Shown: positions 2,956 to 64,000 of the stretch, in pieces
How the letters are laid out: each line of letters opens with the position of its first letter
Position numbering within the stretch: the first letter of the stretch is position 1
Origin: Nitrospirota bacterium
GTDB taxonomy: Bacteria; Nitrospirota; Nitrospiria; Nitrospirales; Nitrospiraceae
Direction: 5' to 3'
NCBI GenBank assembly: GCA_040755395.1
Contig: JBFMAX010000004.1
Coordinates: forward strand, 124,001-188,000
Length of the DNA: 64,000 nucleotides
Made by a program: the position numbers and the translations under genes
The notes under the pieces: generated by a model
Told to the model about the DNA's origin: nothing
Database searches by the model: none
Seen by the model: only the letters and a program-made list of their open reading frames with translations

Positions 2956-3012
2956 TCGAGCGAACTATAGGACGGTGCGTAAAGCCGTCGTGGATCCGAC
3001 GGTCGGGGCAGT

Positions 3013-3360
3013 TTAATTCCGCACCCCGCTCCACACCTTATCGGGATTGATCTCCTTGTCGGGATTGAGCTTCTTCGCTTTCTCTAAGAGAGCCTCTGTC
3101 GTCTCGGGATAGGCCGGATCAGGAACGCAACAGTTGTCGACCGGGCACACGGCGGCGCACTGGGGTTCGTCGAAGTGGCCGACACATTCGGTGCAGCGAT
3201 CGTGAGTGATCACATAAATATTGTCGCCTACCCCCTGGCCCTCGCCGACATGGTAGCCTTTGCTCTCGGCATCGCTCCGGGTTTCGAAGATGGCCTCGTT
3301 GGGGCACTCCGGGAGACAGGCTCCACAGGAGATGCATTCGTCAGTAATCAGCAGTGCCAT
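3013..3360 (-). CDS. 2[4Fe-4S] ferredoxin, YfhL/Allochromatium type
   Basis: A 115-residue electron carrier with two cluster-binding motifs: CISCGACLPECP near the N-terminus and, in the second half, CTECVGHFDEPQCAAVCP followed by DNC. The extra residues between the second and third Cys of the second motif are the hallmark of the Allochromatium-type (Alvin) ferredoxins, which hold two [4Fe-4S] clusters of very low potential. The tail after residue 80 is charged and helical. It is cytoplasmic and monocistronic, transcribed divergently from the DUF192 gene. The redox partner cannot be told from the context. Confidence 0.9.
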   Translation of the reverse strand: MALLITDECISCGACLPECPNEAIFETRSDAESKGYHVGEGQGVGDNIYVITHDRCTECVGHFDEPQCAAVCPVDNCCVPDPAYPETTEALLEKAKKLNPDKEINPDKVWSGVRN

Positions 3361-55855: not shown

Positions 55856-58138
55856 GTGCCACGGTGTAGGGTGACCCTGTCTTGCCTCGCGCGTGCCGCC
55901 GGTCTGTTCGCCGCCGGGGTCCTTTCCTCAGCCGGGTTCCTACACGGGGGCGCTGCACCGGCCTGGGCCGGCGCAGAACCCGCCGGTTCGCCCAGGCTGC
56001 AGGACACGGCCATCCTTTCTCATGCGCTATCCATCGACCTTTTTCCTGATACGCATCGGCTGATCGCCGCGGACCGCATGACCATCGGTATCGGGACCGG
56101 ATCCGCCGAGCAACTCGCGTTTTCGCTGGCGTCGTCGCTTCAGGTGCGGCAGATCCAGGCAACCTCGGATTCCCAGCCGATTGACGTGACCTGGACAGCC
56201 GAATCGGGAGCCGCCGCGGCGCTCCATGGATCGCAGGGGCAACGGGTGCTCGTCCGATTGGGACGCCCGATTCCGTCCGGCCGAACCCTTACGCTGGAGT
56301 GGCGGTACGAAGGAATCGTCAATGACCCCCCGCGCGAACCCCGGCATCTTCGCTTCGTGATTCCCAGCGAAACCTCCGGCCATATCGGTCCGCAGGGCGT
56401 GTACCTGAGCGGCGAAACCGAATGGTATCCGGACCTCGTCGGCTCGCTCGCGACCTTTCATGTCTCGGTGACCACGCCTCGCGGGTGGGTGGCCGTCACG
56501 CACGGCAGAGAGGTCTCTCGGAGAGAAGCCGGCGTCGGGACCGAGTCGGTGACGGCCGAATGGGAGGTGACGGAAAAGACCGAGGCGCTGACGCTCGTGG
56601 CCAATCGATTCGTAACGTCACAGCGGGATTGGCGGGACAGGGGAGGCCGCGCGATCCGGATCGCGACCTATCTGTTCCCGGAAGACGCCCACCTGGCGGA
56701 TGAATATCTCGACGCCTCCGCACGCTACCTGGAAGCCTACAGCGAGATTCTCGGGCCCTATCCGTTCCCCAAATTCGCCGTGGTGGAAAATTTCTTCGCC
56801 AGCGGCTTGGGTATGCCGTCGTTCACCCTGCTGGGAAGCGGCGTCATCAAGCGCCACTATGTGCAGCCCTACGCGCTGGGCCACGAGATCGTCCACTCCT
56901 GGATCGGCAACGCCGTGTTCAATCGGACGGAAGCGGGGAATTGGGTCGAGGGACTCACCACCTACCTGGCCAATTACTACTATCACGAGTTGACCGGGAA
57001 GACCGAAGAAGCCGGGCGGGAGCGACGCCTGATGCTCTACGGCTATGCGGTGCACGTCAGGCCGGAGCAGGACTATCCGGTCGGGAGCTTCACCCGGAAA
57101 ACGGACGAGAAGGACAATGCCATCGGCTATCAAAAGGCGGCCATGGTCTTCCACATGCTGCGTGGCGAGATCGGCGAAACGGCGTTCTGGGCCGGCGTGA
57201 AGAAGCTGGTCTCGGACTTCCGGGGAACCTATGCCGATTGGCGCGACCTTGAACGGATATTCGCCGAAACGGCCGGCAGGGATCTGCGGTGGTTCTTCGC
57301 CCAGTGGATCGAACGAACGGGCGCCCCCGACCTGACAATGAGGCGCGCGACGGCGCGGCCGGCGCCGACAACGTCGGAGCCGGGCGGCTATCGGCTCACC
57401 GCCAGGGTCGTGCAGGCGGGAACCCCGTTCCGATTCCGGGTTCAGTTGCTTGTCCGGTTGGAAGGGAACCGGATGCACCGCGCGGATGTTATGATCGAGC
57501 GGGCCGAGCAGGACGTGACCGTGTCCGTCCCGGCCAAACCGGTCGCCGTCGAGCTCGATCCCGACCTGGCGGTATTCCGCCGCCTGGACCGCGCCCGGCT
57601 TCCGGCGATGCTGAATCTTTATGTCACCGATCGGCGACGATTGGTGGTGCCGCCGGACGCCGGGTCGGAGGCGGCGCGCGCGCCGTATCGGGAACTGGTC
57701 GCCCGCATCCTCAAACAAAATCGGTCACGGCCCGCTGAGGAACAGACCGACGTGGTGGAAGGAGCGAGGGCGGACGGTGTATCGGCCGCGGGTTCGGTGC
57801 TAGTATTGGGCGGGCCCGGCGCGAACCGGGCCGCTGCGTGGGCGGTGCGGGGCTGCGAAGGGAGCGTGCGGATCAGCGAGGACGGGTTTGCCATCGGGGG
57901 GAATCGGTATGAAGGGCCGCAGGCCGCGCTCTTGGTATCCTGTCGACGACCGGACCGGCCGGGGAGCGTCGTGACGCTCTTTTACGGGGTGTCGCCGGAG
58001 GCGGCGGCGAAAGTCGCCAGGCTGTTATTTTTTTACGGGTGGAACAGTTACGTCGTCTTCCGCGACGGCGCGGTGGTGGCCCGCGGAGACTGGGAAGAAC
58101 CGCGGGATGTGGTGGAGGTCGATGTTGAGGCGCCGTAG
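55856..58138 (+). CDS. exported M1-like zinc metallopeptidase
   Basis: A 760-residue exported protein: a signal-like N-terminus (hydrophobic residues about 12-38), a beta-rich N-terminal domain, then the M1/gluzincin catalytic domain with GLGMPSFTLLGSG in place of the GAMEN-like substrate loop, zinc motif HEIVHSW near residue 344 and the second Glu in GNWVEGLTTYLANYY 17 residues later. A Tyr near GYQKAAMVFHMLRGEIG is the expected transition-state Tyr. The last 250 residues are an unrecognised beta domain. The following TolB-like gene overlaps its end. Aminopeptidase activity is likely but untested. Confidence 0.88.
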   Translation: MPRCRVTLSCLARAAGLFAAGVLSSAGFLHGGAAPAWAGAEPAGSPRLQDTAILSHALSIDLFPDTHRLIAADRMTIGIGTGSAEQLAFSLASSLQVRQIQATSDSQPIDVTWTAESGAAAALHGSQGQRVLVRLGRPIPSGRTLTLEWRYEGIVNDPPREPRHLRFVIPSETSGHIGPQGVYLSGETEWYPDLVGSLATFHVSVTTPRGWVAVTHGREVSRREAGVGTESVTAEWEVTEKTEALTLVANRFVTSQRDWRDRGGRAIRIATYLFPEDAHLADEYLDASARYLEAYSEILGPYPFPKFAVVENFFASGLGMPSFTLLGSGVIKRHYVQPYALGHEIVHSWIGNAVFNRTEAGNWVEGLTTYLANYYYHELTGKTEEAGRERRLMLYGYAVHVRPEQDYPVGSFTRKTDEKDNAIGYQKAAMVFHMLRGEIGETAFWAGVKKLVSDFRGTYADWRDLERIFAETAGRDLRWFFAQWIERTGAPDLTMRRATARPAPTTSEPGGYRLTARVVQAGTPFRFRVQLLVRLEGNRMHRADVMIERAEQDVTVSVPAKPVAVELDPDLAVFRRLDRARLPAMLNLYVTDRRRLVVPPDAGSEAARAPYRELVARILKQNRSRPAEEQTDVVEGARADGVSAAGSVLVLGGPGANRAAAWAVRGCEGSVRISEDGFAIGGNRYEGPQAALLVSCRRPDRPGSVVTLFYGVSPEAAAKVARLLFFYGWNSYVVFRDGAVVARGDWEEPRDVVEVDVEAP

Positions 58139-59345
58139 GTCGGTGCTGAGCACTGTGTCGCTCGCGTTCTTGAGCGTGCTTGTCGGGGCGTTGTGTTCCG
58201 ATGTTCGAAGTTCGATGTTCGACGTTCGAGGCATTCCGACCGCCGACCAACCTCGAACCTCGAACCTCGAACCCCGACGGGTGATCGAACGTCACCTCGC
58301 GAACATCCGCCAGCTCACCTTCGGCCGGCAAAACGCCGAGGCGTATTTTTCCTTTGACGGGACCAAGCTCATTTTTCAATCCACCAACAACTGGATGAAG
58401 GGCACCTTTGCGGAGACGCTCGCGCCGGCGGAGTCGGGCCTCGGTTGTTATCAGATGTACGTGATGGATCTGGAGACCGGCCACATCCGGCTGGTCAGCA
58501 CCGGGACGGGGGCGACCACCTGCGGCTACTTCTTCCCCGGCGACCGGCGCGTGCTCTTCTCGTCCACTCATTTGCGTGGACCGAACTGTCCGCCGAAGCC
58601 CAAGCGTGACCGGGCCTACCGCTGGGCCTTGGACGACTACGATATTTTTTCCGTCAGGATCGACGGCCAGCAGATACAGCGTCTGACCCATACGCCGGGC
58701 TATGACGCCGAAGCGACCGTCTCGCCGGACGGCAAGACGATCGTCTTCACCTCGATGCGCGACGGAGATTTGGACATCTACGCCATGAATTTGGACGGCA
58801 CCCATCTGCGACGGCTTACCGACGAAGTCGGCTACGACGGCGGACCCTTCTTCTCGCCGGACAGCAAGCGTATCGTGTATCGGGCGCACCACCCCAAGGA
58901 GCCGGCCGACATCGCCAAGTACAAAGAATTGCTGGCGCGGAACCTGGTCGAACCGAGCCGTCTGGAAATCTTCGTGATGAACGCCGACGGCACGGGCAAG
59001 CGGCAGGTGACCGCGAACGGCGCCTCCAACTTTGCGCCGTTCTTTCATCCGGACGGCCGGCGCATCATCTTCTCGTCGAATGTGCAGGACGTGCCCCCTT
59101 CCTCCGTCCCCCGCTCTCCGTTGACGGATGACGGACGACGGAAAACGGAAGGCGGAAGACCGCCGGCGTTTCATCTCTATCTGATCAACGATGACGGGAC
59201 CGCCTTGGAGCGCGTCACGTTCGAGGGCTCTTTCAACAGCTTCCCGATGTTCTCACCCGACGGCAAAAAGCTGGTCTGGGTGTCGAACCGCGGCGCGAAG
59301 GAACCCGGAGAGTTCAACATCTTTCTCGCCGACTGGGCACCATGA
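58107..59345 (+). CDS. exported TolB-like beta-propeller (PD40 repeats) with two repeat-encoded insertions
   Basis: A 412-residue protein with a signal peptide (hydrophobic residues 12-30) and at least four WD40-like PD40 blades, each with the pattern SPDGKxIVFTS (ATVSPDGKTIVFTSMRDGD, PFFSPDSKRIVYRA, PFFHPDGRRIIFSS, PMFSPDGKKLVWVS). Such propellers mediate protein interactions in the periplasm. Two short stretches are not family-like: residues 33-57 and 330-350 are encoded by heptad-phased repeats. The stop overlaps the PAP2 start by four bases. The earlier start overlaps the peptidase gene by 32 bases. Confidence 0.87.
   Translation: MWWRSMLRRRRSVLSTVSLAFLSVLVGALCSDVRSSMFDVRGIPTADQPRTSNLEPRRVIERHLANIRQLTFGRQNAEAYFSFDGTKLIFQSTNNWMKGTFAETLAPAESGLGCYQMYVMDLETGHIRLVSTGTGATTCGYFFPGDRRVLFSSTHLRGPNCPPKPKRDRAYRWALDDYDIFSVRIDGQQIQRLTHTPGYDAEATVSPDGKTIVFTSMRDGDLDIYAMNLDGTHLRRLTDEVGYDGGPFFSPDSKRIVYRAHHPKEPADIAKYKELLARNLVEPSRLEIFVMNADGTGKRQVTANGASNFAPFFHPDGRRIIFSSNVQDVPPSSVPRSPLTDDGRRKTEGGRPPAFHLYLINDDGTALERVTFEGSFNSFPMFSPDGKKLVWVSNRGAKEPGEFNIFLADWAP
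58204..58278. repeat. heptad-phased hairpin repeat in the 5' part of the TolB-like gene
   Basis: Four words of type TTCGAxG run at 58204-58231; their complements (CCTCGAA three times, then CCCCGAC) run at 58251-58278. It is read in frame as a peptide containing RSSMFDV and TSNLEPR. The word family is shared with the repeat at 61304 in the GT39 gene. Confidence 0.88.
59094..59158. repeat. heptad-phased hairpin repeat in the 3' part of the TolB-like gene
   Basis: Five words of type ACGGAxG run at 59124-59158. Their complements (CCTCCGT, CCCCCGC, TCTCCGT) run at 59101-59121 in 7-base steps. Together they encode a Pro/Ser/Arg-rich loop between two propeller blades. Confidence 0.85.
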
Positions 59346-60472
59346 CCTCGCCAGATAGAGCGAACAGCGAACAGCCAACAGCAAATAGCTCAGAACTGAT
59401 AGCGACTCGCTATTCGCTGCTTGCTATCGCGCTCATGTCTTGCGCTGCGCTCGCCGTGGTGTTCTGGGGTCTGGCCCAACTGGACGTTCCGGTGGCCCGG
59501 GCTATGCGCTCGCTCTATCACCCGGTGGGGTATTTGCCGAATCCCTGGCTGGCCTGGTTCAGTGATGTGGGAGATGCGCTGGGGCAAGGGCGATCCCTGG
59601 TGCTCTTTTCTCTGGCGTTGCTGGCCGTCGGGGTCCTGGGCAAATGGCCGGTTCTTCGAGCGACGGGGCTCAAGACCTTGATCGCGCACGGCGCGGTCGC
59701 GATTATCTCGAACGTGCTCAAGCACCTGATCGGGCGGCCTCGTCCGAAGTTCATGCACGCGGGAACCGAGCAGCTTGGTCCATCGATGGACAACGGCTTC
59801 GACTCTTTTCCCTCCGGCCATGCTTCCGCCACCTTTGCCGTGGCGATGGTCTTGTCCAAACAATTTCCCCGAGTCGCGTGGGGGGCGATGGGCGTCGCCG
59901 TGACCGTGGCCATGAGCCGGGTCTTGCGGGGGTCGCACTTTCCCACCGACGTGGCGGCCGGCGCCGTCATCGGAGTCCTCGTCGGGGCTGCGGCGGCCGA
60001 GCCGTTCAGACAGTGGCCCGCGGCGCTCAGCCGGGCGCTCCTCGGCGTGACCACCTGTCTGGCCGCCGCCTTCGCGTTTTTATGGACGGTCTCGCACGGC
60101 GCGGAGTCCTCCTGGAGTCATACCGTGATGCTGGGCCTGGGAAGCGCCATGATGCTCTACGGCGTCGTCAGCCGGGCATACGACCGGTATGTGGCAGGAA
60201 GCATACGGTGGATGGCGGGAAAGTCCGAAGCCAAAGCGGCTATCGGAGTCGGACTGGCGGTCACGACGGGATCGCTGTTGGTGGCGGCGCTGGCCCTGGG
60301 TGTCTGCGCGGCCTGGTGGCTGGTCTGGCAAGAGTCGCCCGAGGCGGGCCATGACGAGGCGCCGGCGTCACGCTCGCTGGCCCGGCTCCTTTCGGAAGGG
60401 GCGTGGGTGGCCGGAATCGTGCTGGCGTTTCTGATGATCCAGAGCGTCAAAGGCGCCGTGCCGATCCAGTGA
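59342..60472 (+). CDS. PAP2 family membrane phosphatase
   Basis: A 376-residue multi-pass protein with the three PAP2 signatures: KHLIGRPRP near residue 127, PSGHASATFAVAM near residue 158, and SRVLRGSHFPTDVAAG near residue 195, containing the catalytic His. It dephosphorylates lipid phosphates such as undecaprenyl pyrophosphate or phosphatidate. Six or more membrane helices are visible, with two extra helices at the C-terminus. The first 27 residues are encoded by a heptad-phased repeat and do not look like a signal; the first real helix starts near residue 26. ATG overlaps the previous stop. Confidence 0.9.
   Translation: MTSPDRANSEQPTANSSELIATRYSLLAIALMSCAALAVVFWGLAQLDVPVARAMRSLYHPVGYLPNPWLAWFSDVGDALGQGRSLVLFSLALLAVGVLGKWPVLRATGLKTLIAHGAVAIISNVLKHLIGRPRPKFMHAGTEQLGPSMDNGFDSFPSGHASATFAVAMVLSKQFPRVAWGAMGVAVTVAMSRVLRGSHFPTDVAAGAVIGVLVGAAAAEPFRQWPAALSRALLGVTTCLAAAFAFLWTVSHGAESSWSHTVMLGLGSAMMLYGVVSRAYDRYVAGSIRWMAGKSEAKAAIGVGLAVTTGSLLVAALALGVCAAWWLVWQESPEAGHDEAPASRSLARLLSEGAWVAGIVLAFLMIQSVKGAVPIQ
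59353..59429. repeat. heptad-phased hairpin repeat at the 5' end of the PAP2 gene
   Basis: Words of type GCGAACA run at 59360-59387 and words of type GCTATTC at 59402-59429, all in strict 7-base steps, giving a partly complementary hairpin. The words and the 10-base GCTCAGAACT core are shared with the repeat at 53904. It encodes the first residues of the phosphatase. Confidence 0.85.
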
Positions 60473-60485
60473 GGATCGGGGACGG

Positions 60486-62297
60486 TCAGTGCCCCGGAAT
60501 CCTCAACACATCGGGCGGCGGCTGGGCGGAAACCGGCGGGAGCTTCACCATCGGCTCATTGGCGAGGAGGAGATACCCGTAGCGCTGCAGGACGACGGGA
60601 TAGTCCGCCGTCTCCTCGGGAAGTTTGGATTTCAGTCTGGCCGGCAGCAGGATCATCGTCCGTCCCGGTTGATTCAGATAGGGGCGGATGTTCTCCTCCT
60701 CGCCGGGATGGATCACGATGACCTTCCGTCTCGCATAGAACACCGAGGACGGACGGGGCGGCCCGTACAGGATGAGACGATCCTGGGGACCCAGATTCAG
60801 CCCGGCCGCGAAGGCCAGCTCCTGGGGCGGCGCGATAAAATAGTGACTGATGCGCGGTAGGGTCACCTGAATCGCGATCAACCCCACCAGCGCGATCGAC
60901 GCGCCGGCCGCCCAAAACGCGCCGGGCCGGCGCGTTTCCCATAATCCGAAATAGCCGACCGACGCCATCCCGATCACGAGAATGGTCGCCGCGGCATAGG
61001 GACCGACCCCGAGATTCACCTCCGTCGCTGCGGGGAACTCTTTGGCGATCGTGTCGATGAACGTGGAATACAGCGGGGGCAAAGCGGCAAAGCCCAACGC
61101 CAGCGCGTAGCCCAGTCCCATCATCAGATGGATCGAGGCGCGGGCGCCGCGCGTGGCGGGGTCGGTCACGCAACGCTGCCAATAGGACGCGGTCAACAAC
61201 GCGGCGGCCGGGAACAGGGGCGCGATATAGTGCGGGAGCCGCGTGGAAGACAGCGTGAAAAAGAGGAACACCCCGACCACCCACAGGGCGGCGAACAACT
61301 CCAGTTCGGAGTTCGAGGGTCGATGTTCGAGGTTTGAGGTCCCTACTTCGAACTTCGAACTTCGAACAGTCTTGAACGCCTGATAGAGCGCGAACGGCAG
61401 CAGACCGCTCCAAGGGAAAAACCCGAAGAACAACACCGGGACGTAGAACAAGATGGAGAAGCCATGCCCTTCCATCGGATTGAGAAATCGGCCGACGGTG
61501 TTGGCCTGCGCGGAAGCCGTGTACGCCGAGCCGTGGATGGCCAGCATCGCGGCGTACCAGGGCAGCGCGAGCAGCGCGAACAGGAACAGCCCCGCCAACG
61601 GAAAGCCGTGTCGCCAGAACTGTCCCCATCGCCGGGTGAAGGAGAGGTACACCACCGCCGTCAGCAAGGGCACGGCAATGCCGACCGGTCCCTTCGTCAG
61701 CGTCGCCAGCGCCATGCCGGCATAGAACAGCCAAAAGAAATGGCGGGAGCGTTCAGGGGGAGAGGATAAGGGAGAGGGGGTGCGCGCAGTCGAAGCATGG
61801 AGCCCGGACCAGAACCCGTAGAGCGCCAGCGTGGTGAAGAAAATGAGCACGCTGTCGGTCAGGGCCATGCGTCCCAGGCCGATGATCTCGATATTGAGCA
61901 ACAGCATCAACCCGCCGAACAGATCGACCGGCGTCCCGCGCCAGCGCCTGAGAAACAAGTACTGCAACAGGATCAACGCCACGCCGAACAGCGCCGACGG
62001 GAATCGCGCGGCGAATTCGCTCACGCCGAACAGCCGGTAGGACAGGCTCATCAGCCAGTAGAGGAACACCGGCTTGGCGTAACGGGGTTCGTAATTGAAC
62101 GTCGGGCTGATCCAGTCGCCGGTCTCGAACATTTCGCGTCCGGCTTCGGCGTTCCGGCCTTCGTCCCGATCGGTGAGCCCCATTCCGCCGAGATTGAGGA
62201 AGAAGAGGAGCCCGGCGAGCGACAGGAGCAGAAGAAGATGGGACCAGGCGGAAGCCGTTCGCTGATCGACGGTCGATGCGACGCCGGCCGTGCTCAC
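60486..62297 (-). CDS. membrane glycosyltransferase, ArnT/PMT-like (GT39/GT83)
   Basis: A 603-residue multi-pass transferase. The N-terminal catalytic loop shows GLTDRDEGRNAEAGREMFETGDW with the catalytic Asp/Glu pair, then YAKPVFLYWLMSLSYRLFGVSEFAARFPS, which matches the PMT/ArnT family using polyprenyl-phosphate sugars. About ten membrane segments follow and a soluble C-terminal domain. The start is GTG 62297, overlapping the LAB_N stop. Two internal stretches are repeat-encoded: one at 61304-61366 and one at 61755-61783, both in loops. It probably glycosylates lipid A or another surface lipid, together with the GT2 gene. Confidence 0.88.
   Translation of the reverse strand: MSTAGVASTVDQRTASAWSHLLLLLSLAGLLFFLNLGGMGLTDRDEGRNAEAGREMFETGDWISPTFNYEPRYAKPVFLYWLMSLSYRLFGVSEFAARFPSALFGVALILLQYLFLRRWRGTPVDLFGGLMLLLNIEIIGLGRMALTDSVLIFFTTLALYGFWSGLHASTARTPSPLSSPPERSRHFFWLFYAGMALATLTKGPVGIAVPLLTAVVYLSFTRRWGQFWRHGFPLAGLFLFALLALPWYAAMLAIHGSAYTASAQANTVGRFLNPMEGHGFSILFYVPVLFFGFFPWSGLLPFALYQAFKTVRSSKFEVGTSNLEHRPSNSELELFAALWVVGVFLFFTLSSTRLPHYIAPLFPAAALLTASYWQRCVTDPATRGARASIHLMMGLGYALALGFAALPPLYSTFIDTIAKEFPAATEVNLGVGPYAAATILVIGMASVGYFGLWETRRPGAFWAAGASIALVGLIAIQVTLPRISHYFIAPPQELAFAAGLNLGPQDRLILYGPPRPSSVFYARRKVIVIHPGEEENIRPYLNQPGRTMILLPARLKSKLPEETADYPVVLQRYGYLLLANEPMVKLPPVSAQPPPDVLRIPGH
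61304..61366. repeat. heptad-phased hairpin repeat inside the GT39 gene
   Basis: On the plus strand words of type GTTCGAG run at 61304-61338 and CTTCGAA three times at 61346-61366. On the coding strand it is read as RSSKFEV and TSNLEHR, the same peptide words as in the TolB-like gene at 58204. Confidence 0.88.
61755..61783. repeat. short G-rich heptad repeat inside the GT39 gene
   Basis: On the plus strand GGGGGAG, AGGATAA, GGGAGAG and GGGGTGC follow each other. Only one arm is present. It encodes a Ser/Pro-rich loop of the membrane protein. Confidence 0.5.
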
Positions 62298-62587
62298 CAG
62301 CGAACCTCGGACAGCGAGCGTTTCCCGCCGGCGCGATGGATGAGCATGAGGTTCCGCAGATAGACGAGCGCCCCCACGCTCTGGCCGGCGATGAACACCG
62401 GGTCCATCCGATAGATGGCGTAGGCCAGGGTGATCAGCCCGCCGATCAGGCTCATGTACCAGAACGCGAGCGGCACGCGGCTCTCGGCGCTCCGCTCGGA
62501 AGCCACCCACTGCAGCACCCAGCGTCCGAAAAAGAGTCCCTGGCCGAGGAAGCCGATTCCCAACCAGATCGATTCAGTGAGGGTCAT
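62294..62587 (-). CDS. LAB_N (lipid-A-disaccharide-synthase N-terminal-like) membrane protein
   Basis: A 97-residue protein with three or four hydrophobic segments, matching the LAB_N domain: WLGIGFLGQGLFFGRWVLQWVASERS, PLAFWYMSLIGGLITLAYAIYRMDPVF and GALVYLRNLMLIHR. Stand-alone LAB_N proteins lie next to GT2 and ArnT-like genes of lipid modification in many genomes and resemble small multidrug-type transporters. The stop overlaps the GT39 start (GTGA). Confidence 0.9.
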   Translation of the reverse strand: MTLTESIWLGIGFLGQGLFFGRWVLQWVASERSAESRVPLAFWYMSLIGGLITLAYAIYRMDPVFIAGQSVGALVYLRNLMLIHRAGGKRSLSEVRW

Positions 62588-62596
62588 GAGAAGATC

Positions 62597-63101
62597 GTAA
62601 GACGTGACGCGTTATGCGTGATGCGAATGAGAGTCTCGTTTGACAAAACGAAGAAGGCCGAGGAGCATGTGTCGTACGCGCTCAATCCGATCGAGGACAT
62701 CCGTGCCAGACATGAAATCCAACTTTGCGGCCAACAGAAGCTGAGTTTCTAGCTCAGCAACCGACCCGAACGCAAGAGAGAGGAACTGAACATAGTCCGT
62801 TCGAGAGTTTCGAGCTGCACCTTCAGCAATGTTGCTGGGTATCGAAACGGCCGAACGCCTGGTTTGAACTGCAAGGCCGAACTGTTCCTCTTTTGGGAAC
62901 CGGCCGGTGATCGAGTACACGTCAACGGCCAAGTCCATAGCCATCTTCCACACGTCCAGATCCTTGTGGGTCGTATGCTGGCCTTTCTCGGGGTTCATCA
63001 CGCAGTACGCGTTACGCATCACGCGCTTGCTTATTGCCGCCTTGTCGCGCGTCACGCTCTTATTCTCGCTCCTGAGACACATGACGCATCACCCATCACG
63101 G
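62597..63101. repeat. composite heptad-repeat element enclosing a four-helix-bundle gene
   Basis: Left side (62597-62630): 7-base words of the type CGTrAyG. Right side (62996-63030 and 63045-63101): complementary words. ACGCGTTATGCGTGATG at 62607-62623 pairs with 62996-63012 over 15 of 17 bases, and a further weaker copy reaches 63101. The element lies between the LAB_N and GT2 genes, and the four-helix-bundle gene fills the space between the arms. Confidence 0.75.
62612..62998 (-). CDS. four-helix-bundle protein (S23/23S-rRNA-IVP family)
   Basis: A 128-residue protein of the four-helix-bundle family first known from intervening sequences in 23S rRNA genes and structurally related to the Avd protein of diversity-generating retroelements. 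The family core is visible: DLDVWKMAMDLAVDVYSITGRFPKEEQFGL, then QTRRSAVSIPSNIAEGAARNSRTDYVQFL and ELETQLLLAAKL (about 62672-62960). Its start ATG (62998) lies in the right repeat arm and its stop (62612) in the left, and the last residues SHSHHA come from the arm. Longer upstream starts run through repeat sequence and are not family-like. The biological role of the family is unknown. Confidence 0.85.
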   Translation of the reverse strand: MNPEKGQHTTHKDLDVWKMAMDLAVDVYSITGRFPKEEQFGLAVQTRRSAVSIPSNIAEGAARNSRTDYVQFLSLAFGSVAELETQLLLAAKLDFMSGTDVLDRIERVRHMLLGLLRFVKRDSHSHHA

Positions 63102-63823
63102 AATCGATACCGCAACGCCCGTTTCATCATCCACCGCACTGCGATCAAATCGTACAGGCCTTTGAAGAGCCGGTTGCCGACGCCGTACTTTGAGACGCCG
63201 TGGGCGCGGGGATAGTGACGCACCGGAACTTCCGTCACGGTGAAACCGTAGATCAGCGCCAGCGCGGGAAAAAACCGGTGCATCCCGTCGAAGAGCGGCA
63301 CCCGCTCCACCACGGCGCGCCGGAACACCTTCAGCGAGCAGCCCGTATCGTGGACGCGGTCGCCGGTCACGGCGCTGCGCACGGCGTTGGCGATGCGCGA
63401 GGACAGCCGCCGGACCAGCGTATCGTGCCGGTTCTGCCGCCAGCCGCACACCAGATCGTACCGATCGATGGACGAAAGGAGCGCGCCGATATCCTCCGGA
63501 TCGTTCTGCAGATCGCCGTCCATCGTGATGATCAGCTCGCCGGTCGAGCGCCGAAATCCGGCGTCGAAGGCCGAGGTTTGCCCGTAGTTCCGGTCGAAGT
63601 GCAACGCCGTGACCTGCGAGTACTGGGTCGCCAACCGGTCGAGCACGGCGGCGCTGCCGTCCGTGCTCCCGTCGTCGATATAGATGATCTCGAAGGGCGC
63701 GGACCGCGACTCCTCGCGCGCGTGAAGCGCCTTGAGCAACCGCTCGGTCAGGGGGACCAGGTTATCCCGTTCGTCTTTGATCGGGATGACCACCGAGGCC
63801 CATGGGCGGGGTGAAACCGTCAT
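63089..63823 (-). CDS. GT2 glycosyltransferase (dolichol-phosphate-mannose-synthase-like)
   Basis: A 244-residue GT-A family transferase: SVVIPIKDERDNL, YIDDGSTDGSAAVLD (nucleotide-sugar binding), ITMDGDLQNDPEDI (metal-binding DXD) and the HDTGCSLKVFRR acceptor region. It likely makes a polyprenyl-phosphate sugar, which the GT39 enzyme then uses. No membrane anchor is present. The last residues and the stop codon lie in the heptad repeat. It is followed on this strand by the four-helix-bundle gene, then LAB_N and GT39. Confidence 0.92.
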   Translation of the reverse strand: MTVSPRPWASVVIPIKDERDNLVPLTERLLKALHAREESRSAPFEIIYIDDGSTDGSAAVLDRLATQYSQVTALHFDRNYGQTSAFDAGFRRSTGELIITMDGDLQNDPEDIGALLSSIDRYDLVCGWRQNRHDTLVRRLSSRIANAVRSAVTGDRVHDTGCSLKVFRRAVVERVPLFDGMHRFFPALALIYGFTVTEVPVRHYPRAHGVSKYGVGNRLFKGLYDLIAVRWMMKRALRYRFRDG

Positions 63824-63898
63824 GCGGAGCGGGCGGTCCTTCGAAGGGTCGAATTCGTGTGAACCACGCGGGCATTCTACAGAATGGACGGAAGACGG

Positions 63899-64000
63899 TC
63901 AAACGCGCGAGCGGAAGCGGGCGGGGATCGACATCAGCCACGCCACGCCCGCCGTTCCCGCCGCCGCGGCCAATCCGAAGGCCCATCCGGAATGCTGGGC
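63899..64000 (-). CDS. C-terminal end of a probable membrane protein (cut by window edge)
   Basis: The minus-strand frame from the right edge encodes 33 residues ending at the stop at 63899. It includes a hydrophobic helix (WAFGLAAAAGTAGVAWLMSI) followed by a short basic tail (PARFRSRV), typical of the last helix of a transporter or similar protein. The family cannot be told. It lies upstream of the GT2 gene. Confidence 0.5.
   Translation of the reverse strand, partial: AQHSGWAFGLAAAAGTAGVAWLMSIPARFRSRV

Follow-up and report, generated by a model that had tools for sequence, protein, structure and literature searches.

A short mobile element made of one S23 gene between inverted heptad arrays, and its likely link to dispersed gene-less hairpins

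The S23 gene has long been regarded as encoding a "ribosomal insertion" protein. RNase III cuts the intervening sequences (IVSs) of 23S rRNA out of the transcript. In rRNA IVSs the same S23p open reading frame lies between terminal repeats; the IVS of Coxiella, for instance, is 428 nt long and carries three tandem heptamers, GACAGAT, by the open reading frame (PMC4990558). A comparable arrangement is found in the RAYT/REPIN system, where a short trans-acting gene, often in single copy, is bracketed by dispersed, extragenic, non-autonomous hairpin-forming repeats (PMC3116915). Heptameric repeats in Xanthomonas and Nostoc have been described as G4-forming simple repeats that are generally unlinked to mobile elements, and that work does not link them to S23 (PMC4692102). 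The open-access literature yielded no report that connects S23 genes with heptad arrays at places other than rRNA.

An S23 gene and its heptad arms

We analysed a stretch of 64,000 nucleotides from a Nitrospirota bacterium (the window), in which an S23 gene sits between genes for a GT2 glycosyltransferase and a LAB_N protein, not in a helix of the 23S rRNA gene (Table 1). The initial annotation had placed the start and stop codons inside inverted arms with 7-base phasing, and the coordinates agree with this. The arms (62591-62623 and 62996-63028) are 76% complementary over 33 nt, with an almost perfect inner core. Their Smith-Waterman score of 15.4 was reached by 0/1000 dinucleotide shuffles of the same flanks (shuffle maximum 14.8), and 0.6% of places drawn at random from this genome attained it. 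Across the window, 105 positions showed lag-7 periodicity at a threshold of at least 16/21, while every other lag between 4 and 12 gave 0-5. No Rfam match was found within 58000-64000.

Table 1 Features of the S23 locus and of the gene-less hairpins in the window.
Feature	Position	Strand	Details
S23 four-helix-bundle CDS, 128 aa	62612..62998	minus	PF05635, TIGR02436; ATG 62996-62998, TAA 62612-62614
5' heptad arm, includes start codon	62996..63028	minus	S23 sense strand AAGCGCGTGATGCGTAACGCGTACTGCGTGATG
3' heptad arm, includes stop codon	about 62591..62625	minus	plus strand AAGATCGTAAGACGTGACGCGTTATGCGTGATG; complements 5' arm
Outer heptad array	63077..63100	minus	CGTGATGGGTGATGCGTCATGTGT on minus strand; GT2 stop codon inside overlap
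GT2 glycosyltransferase	63089..63823	minus	PF00535; host gene upstream of insertion site
LAB_N protein	62294..62587	minus	PF07578; host gene downstream of insertion site
Solo heptad hairpin, gene-less	58195..58281		GTTCGAN type
Solo heptad hairpin, gene-less	61303..61372		in GT39 open frame (variable linker)

The same annotation held that the gene exactly fills the element. Start and stop do lie in the arms, but the exact fit depends on the start that is chosen, as an ATG at 63082 is also possible. Heptad material at the locus spans about 62591-63100, and the outer array is probably the outer part of the element's 5' end. Since the S23 frame stays open upstream to 63082 and this array runs over the GT2 stop codon, the element's border towards GT2 is inexact. 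The hairpin in the GT39 frame is translated in frame (SSKFEVGTSNLEHRPSN), and the GT39 linker there varies in length among relatives.

The protein scored 116.3 bits against PF05635 (cut-off 33.8) and 108.6 bits against TIGR02436 (cut-off 24), and thus belongs to the 23S_rRNA_IVP family by the curated cut-offs. Its AF2 model is a four-helix bundle (pLDDT 92.9) whose best structural match, among 1000 Foldseek-ranked PDB chains, is XCC0516 (2gsc, Z 20.2). A kinship with Avd of diversity-generating retroelements (DGRs), which had also been proposed, extends to the fold but not to family membership: 8ub7_D, from a DGR ribonucleoprotein, aligned with Z 14.3 (rmsd 1.6 over 105 residues) and 4dwl with Z 13.5, while the Avd family model NF033474 gave 21.7 bits, far under its cut-off of 80. 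Taken alone, this modelled likeness would say nothing of function. XCC0516 and Avd are pentamers, and the five chains in each PDB entry agree with this. Six residues (Gln45, Ser52, Asn56, Glu59, Gly60 and Glu82) are invariant in 50 diverse S23 sequences, which is unusual for a mere scaffold. Two properties of the protein were counted against a mobile-element reading. With a median pI of 5.9 the S23 core is not basic, which makes nucleic-acid binding less than obvious, and neither profile nor structure comparison recognised a catalytic domain, nuclease or polymerase. No Y1 HUH tyrosine transposase was found at the window locus, where PF05635 was the sole family matched and the fold is a four-helix bundle.

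Generality of the arms and insertion as one unit

The genome of the window has six S23 genes and six pairs of inverted 7-base arrays, each with a different heptad (GTGATGC, CGTGAAT, GGTCATT, GTGATTG, GGAATGA and GGCGATT). When these six genes were combined with 29 from relatives, 33/35 loci had an inverted arm match at p<0.01, compared to 1/30 for HicB and 3/30 for RRF (ribosome recycling factor) from the same genomes. Matches at this threshold were also found for 62/80 S23 loci across many phyla, and at p<=0.025 for 19/23 on viral contigs. In Xanthomonadaceae, arms (GGGACTC/GGGACCG/GGGAATC) bracket 27/30 S23 genes. Heptad inverted repeats around other S23-like genes, as implied by the initial annotation, were thus present in the same genome, in its relatives and in many phyla. 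The heptads differ between loci and the two arms of one locus agree. Lag-7 arrays cover 14-23% of the bases up to 150 nt from S23 and about 1% past 300 nt, and in the locus listings the 5' arm is the GTGA-like strand in every case. Clear arms were present at 162 loci. The 3' arm includes the stop codon at 66 of these and the 5' arm is touched by the start codon at 23, with a median of 466 nt from arm to arm and a median CDS of 363 nt. A more general role of heptads as brackets of small cargo genes was rejected, given that only 1/30 HicB flanks had arms.

There were some variant and neighbouring arrangements. The arms of L105, L114, L125 and L163 have a period of 8 rather than 7, and those of L026 a longer one. 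L132 of Vreelandella sedimenti (3001-3270) has very long heptad arms (score 121.8), with three S23 genes in 13 kb of one contig, and is a candidate for a recently active copy. Four near-identical S23 loci on viral contigs (L088, L089, L090 and L098) have no inverted arms, and the phage records gave no S23 match. On contig C1 of the genome of the window, RelE-like and HicAB-like toxin-antitoxin pairs are bracketed by heptad arrays (L046, 207946-209475; L063, 545366-546180), and cas2- and cas4-like open frames lie between paired arrays (L047, 226671-227680). The HicAB-like pair adjoins the S23 locus L005 and has the same heptad as that locus.

The GT2-LAB_N site was compared in 33 relatives with LAB_N. 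Many of them have just 2-100 nt between the two genes, which provides the empty sites that had been suggested as a check on mobility. An S23 element is present there in eight genera (one copy broken), and three genomes (G007, G034 and G039) have an S23-less heptad hairpin. Well-supported branches divide the S23 proteins of this site into at least two clades. Clade A (G000, G016 and G023) has GTGAYGC-like arms, as do clade A elements at other sites (L018, L033), and clade B has GGCGAG/GGCGAT arms in common with L017 at another site. The site has thus been occupied on at least two occasions, and arm type follows the protein. In a comparison of 130 loci, arm similarity climbed with protein identity, being 0.09 where identity was under 40% and 0.62 where it exceeded 70% (Mantel r=0.26, p=0.001; r=0.07 for control flanks). 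The fast drift of arm sequences was counted against the mobile-element reading; it fits structural rather than sequence-specific recognition.

Filled and empty sites could be aligned directly on conjugative plasmids of Nostocales. Site 1 is filled in T. variabilis and Scytonema and empty in Aulosira, Nostoc carneum and Tolypothrix, on plasmids that are 96% identical. Site 1 reads AAAAGTAATTAACAAAT when empty and AAAAGTAAT-[AAATCAGAATTCAG...S23...GAGTTCTTCTTT]-GTAATTAACAAAT when filled, an exact 5-bp duplication (GTAAT) around an element of 409-423 nt. Site 6, which reads AGGTTCTAGGTTATG when empty, is filled as AGGTTCTA-[AATCAGGAGTCAG...S23...CTTCTGGA]-TTCTAGTTATG, with an exact 5-bp duplication of TTCTA, and site 5 is flanked by TAATG/TTATG, which are not identical copies. 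The empty forms of all three sites are without heptads, and no heptad array was found in 50 kb of the three plasmids that are empty at site 1. The arms and gene therefore arrive together, and the S23 element is a minimal mobile element that inserts as one unit. That the gene belongs to a mobile element, as first proposed, accordingly stands on clean insertions between related plasmids with 5-bp target duplications. These duplications were readable at three sites in one group only (Nostocales plasmids), which was counted against the reading; at the cmr2-cmr3, TraM, integrase and nrd sites they were unreadable because the flanks have diverged.

Three of the three insertions are at stop/start junctions, and other occupied junctions are 3-nt or overlapping gene borders, cmr2-cmr3 and nrdB-nrdA. 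On a plasmid of Picosynechococcus PCC 7003, an S23 element (L344, 2983-3339) separates cmr2 from cmr3 in a type III-B CRISPR operon; the cmr2-cmr3 gap in PCC 7002 is 12 nt and holds no insert.

Gene-less hairpins and the weighing of alternatives

Heptad arrays are far more frequent than S23 genes. Contig C1 alone has 141 arrays at the threshold applied, compared to 2-22 at other lags (75 at the harmonic, 14), and those that pair are mostly short hairpins. A homologous plasmid of Nostoc C052 has an internally deleted S23 at site 1 and two S23-less insertions (243 and 219 nt) that are absent from the other five plasmids. Both of these insertions end in the heptad family of the resident deleted element. 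On a plasmid of Nostoc ATCC 53789 (L352, 2904-3165), the TraM site has the same left junction as the Nostoc C052 S23 element, followed by an S23-less heptad hairpin with another loop.

We then compared array number with S23 presence in 198 Xanthomonadaceae genomes, 84 with S23 (usually in single copy) and 114 without. Genome-wide GGGAHYN triples, a census of one heptad class that counts overlapping matches, had a median of 92.5 in genomes with S23 and of 0 in those that lack it (p=1.4e-23). An rpoB tree of 150 genomes gave 42 changes of S23 state; in the 42 independent pairs the S23-positive genome had more arrays in 33, fewer in 4 and the same number in 5 (33/37 untied, p=5e-7). Seven of the wins had fewer than 20 matches in the S23-positive genome and were dropped in a stricter count because the element's own arms could account for them, leaving 26 to 4 (p about 3e-5). 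Two results were counted against the association. At least 10 arrays are present in 15/114 S23-negative Xanthomonadaceae, which we read as candidate relics, and among sampled relatives of the window genome the array excess with S23 was weak (p=0.055, from a small census of 20-kb samples). The earlier proposal that the short hairpins are MITE-like relatives agrees both with the shared heptad family on the Nostoc C052 plasmid and with the correlation between S23 and hairpins.

Candidate partner proteins were considered in the same Xanthomonadaceae. RVT_1 showed no association with S23 (66/84 S23-positive genomes are without it), and a reverse transcriptase partner, as for Avd, was rejected on these grounds. 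Y1_Tnp was weakly associated (odds ratio 2.8) and, as nine array-rich genomes are without both RVT_1 and Y1_Tnp, dispensable; a Y1 transposase partner was likewise rejected.

The main alternative is that S23 is cargo, riding on heptad ends that are moved by some other cell enzyme (a transposase, integrase, reverse transcriptase or repair enzyme) or aiding their persistence. A protein without a known catalytic domain, S23-less hairpins that far outnumber S23 copies and the weak Y1_Tnp association would all suit a passenger. However, S23 presence predicts array number over the 42 independent contrasts, arm type follows S23 clade, and array-rich genomes do without the two enzymes considered, so we regard cargo as unlikely. 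A gene inserting into the loops of older heptad hairpins, as IVSs do at helix tips of 23S rRNA, would instead leave arms that belong to the target. rRNA IVS elements are indeed found in helix 45 or similar hairpins (PMC4990558), and S23-less hairpins at the GT2-LAB_N site (three genomes) and at the TraM site (Nostoc ATCC 53789) could be taken as such targets. This is rejected at the three readable empty sites, which are heptad-free and where arms and gene lie together between the target duplications; arm type also goes with S23 clade at different sites, making loop insertion very improbable as a general account.

Slightly less probable still is that heptad arrays are regulatory or structural repeats of the host, such as G-quadruplex-forming ones, next to which S23 is found incidentally. 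The GGGAATC heptads of Xanthomonas have been described as conserved, transcribed and G4-forming (PMC4692102), which speaks for it. Against it, the arms bracket S23 and not control genes, have a locus-specific sequence in inverted orientation, and are gained or lost together with the insertion, and most heptads are too G-poor for quadruplexes.

Proposed mechanism and comparison with known systems

Considering these observations together, we think it likely that this is a minimal mobile element whose S23 protein recognises its cognate heptad ends and spreads gene-less hairpins in trans. The element has one S23 gene flanked by inverted arrays of a 7-base repeat that is specific to each element, and it moves as a single unit of about 430-470 bp. 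Insertion occurs mostly where the stop and start codons of densely packed genes adjoin and leaves a target duplication of about 5 bp, as seen on the cyanobacterial plasmids. S23, as an Avd-like bundle, most likely recognises the heptad hairpin ends of its own element and may bring them to a cutting and joining, or copying, enzyme supplied by the cell. It may also spread S23-less heptad hairpins in trans, for which the correlation is observed and the causal role is inferred. If S23 does work in trans, S23-less hairpins would build up in genomes that hold it, as REPINs do with RAYTs. S23 very probably acts in trans on heptad hairpins as RAYT does on REPINs, with an Avd-like protein unrelated to RAYT.

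With less confidence, though we still favour it, we propose that S23/IVP elements form a separate pan-bacterial class of transposable elements without a recognisable transposase. An Avd-like pentamer would recognise self-made heptad hairpin ends and make or propagate both full and gene-less copies in trans. These elements would then be the hidden cause of heptameric repeats in Xanthomonas, Nostoc, Nitrospira-like and many other genomes, and rRNA IVSs would be a special case, elements that had inserted into 23S rRNA. Heptad-ended S23 elements of about 450 bases are spread over many phyla, and their carrier genomes tend to hold many gene-less ends. If true, one account would cover the role of the common "four helix bundle / S23 ribosomal" proteins, the origin of heptameric repeats and the entry of IVSs into rRNA, and would add a transposition system that lacks all known transposase domains, carried by a 450-bp element whose simplicity allows direct testing.

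Compared to described systems, the element shares terminal inverted repeats and a short target duplication with IS elements and MITEs that use a DDE transposase, but its ends vary between elements and S23 is the sole encoded protein, with no transposase. Avd of DGRs has a common fold with S23, which falls below the Avd family cut-off; Avd works beside a reverse transcriptase, whereas heptad abundance with S23 needs none. The Xanthomonas and Nostoc repeats (GGGAATC, GGGGA(C/T)T; cyanobacterial STRR) are heptad arrays of the kind seen with S23, dispersed and in many cases inverted, and the Luteimonas S23 (L175/L253) is bracketed by GGGAATC. With the 23S rRNA IVS, the element has in common the protein family, an open reading frame in the loop of terminal inverted repeats and a similar size, but it differs in its location in protein-coding operons, its empty sites, its target duplications and its dispersed S23-less relatives. 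RAYT/REPIN provides the closest working model, as both combine a trans-acting gene with dispersed non-autonomous hairpins, in the case of S23 as a correlation only. However, RAYT is an HUH/Y1 tyrosine enzyme, while S23 is an Avd-like four-helix bundle for which Y1_Tnp is dispensable, and the S23 elements have 7-base-array ends that change from element to element and target duplications of about 5 bp. The S23 element thus appears to work like RAYT/REPIN and is not a member of that system, its protein and ends being unrelated.
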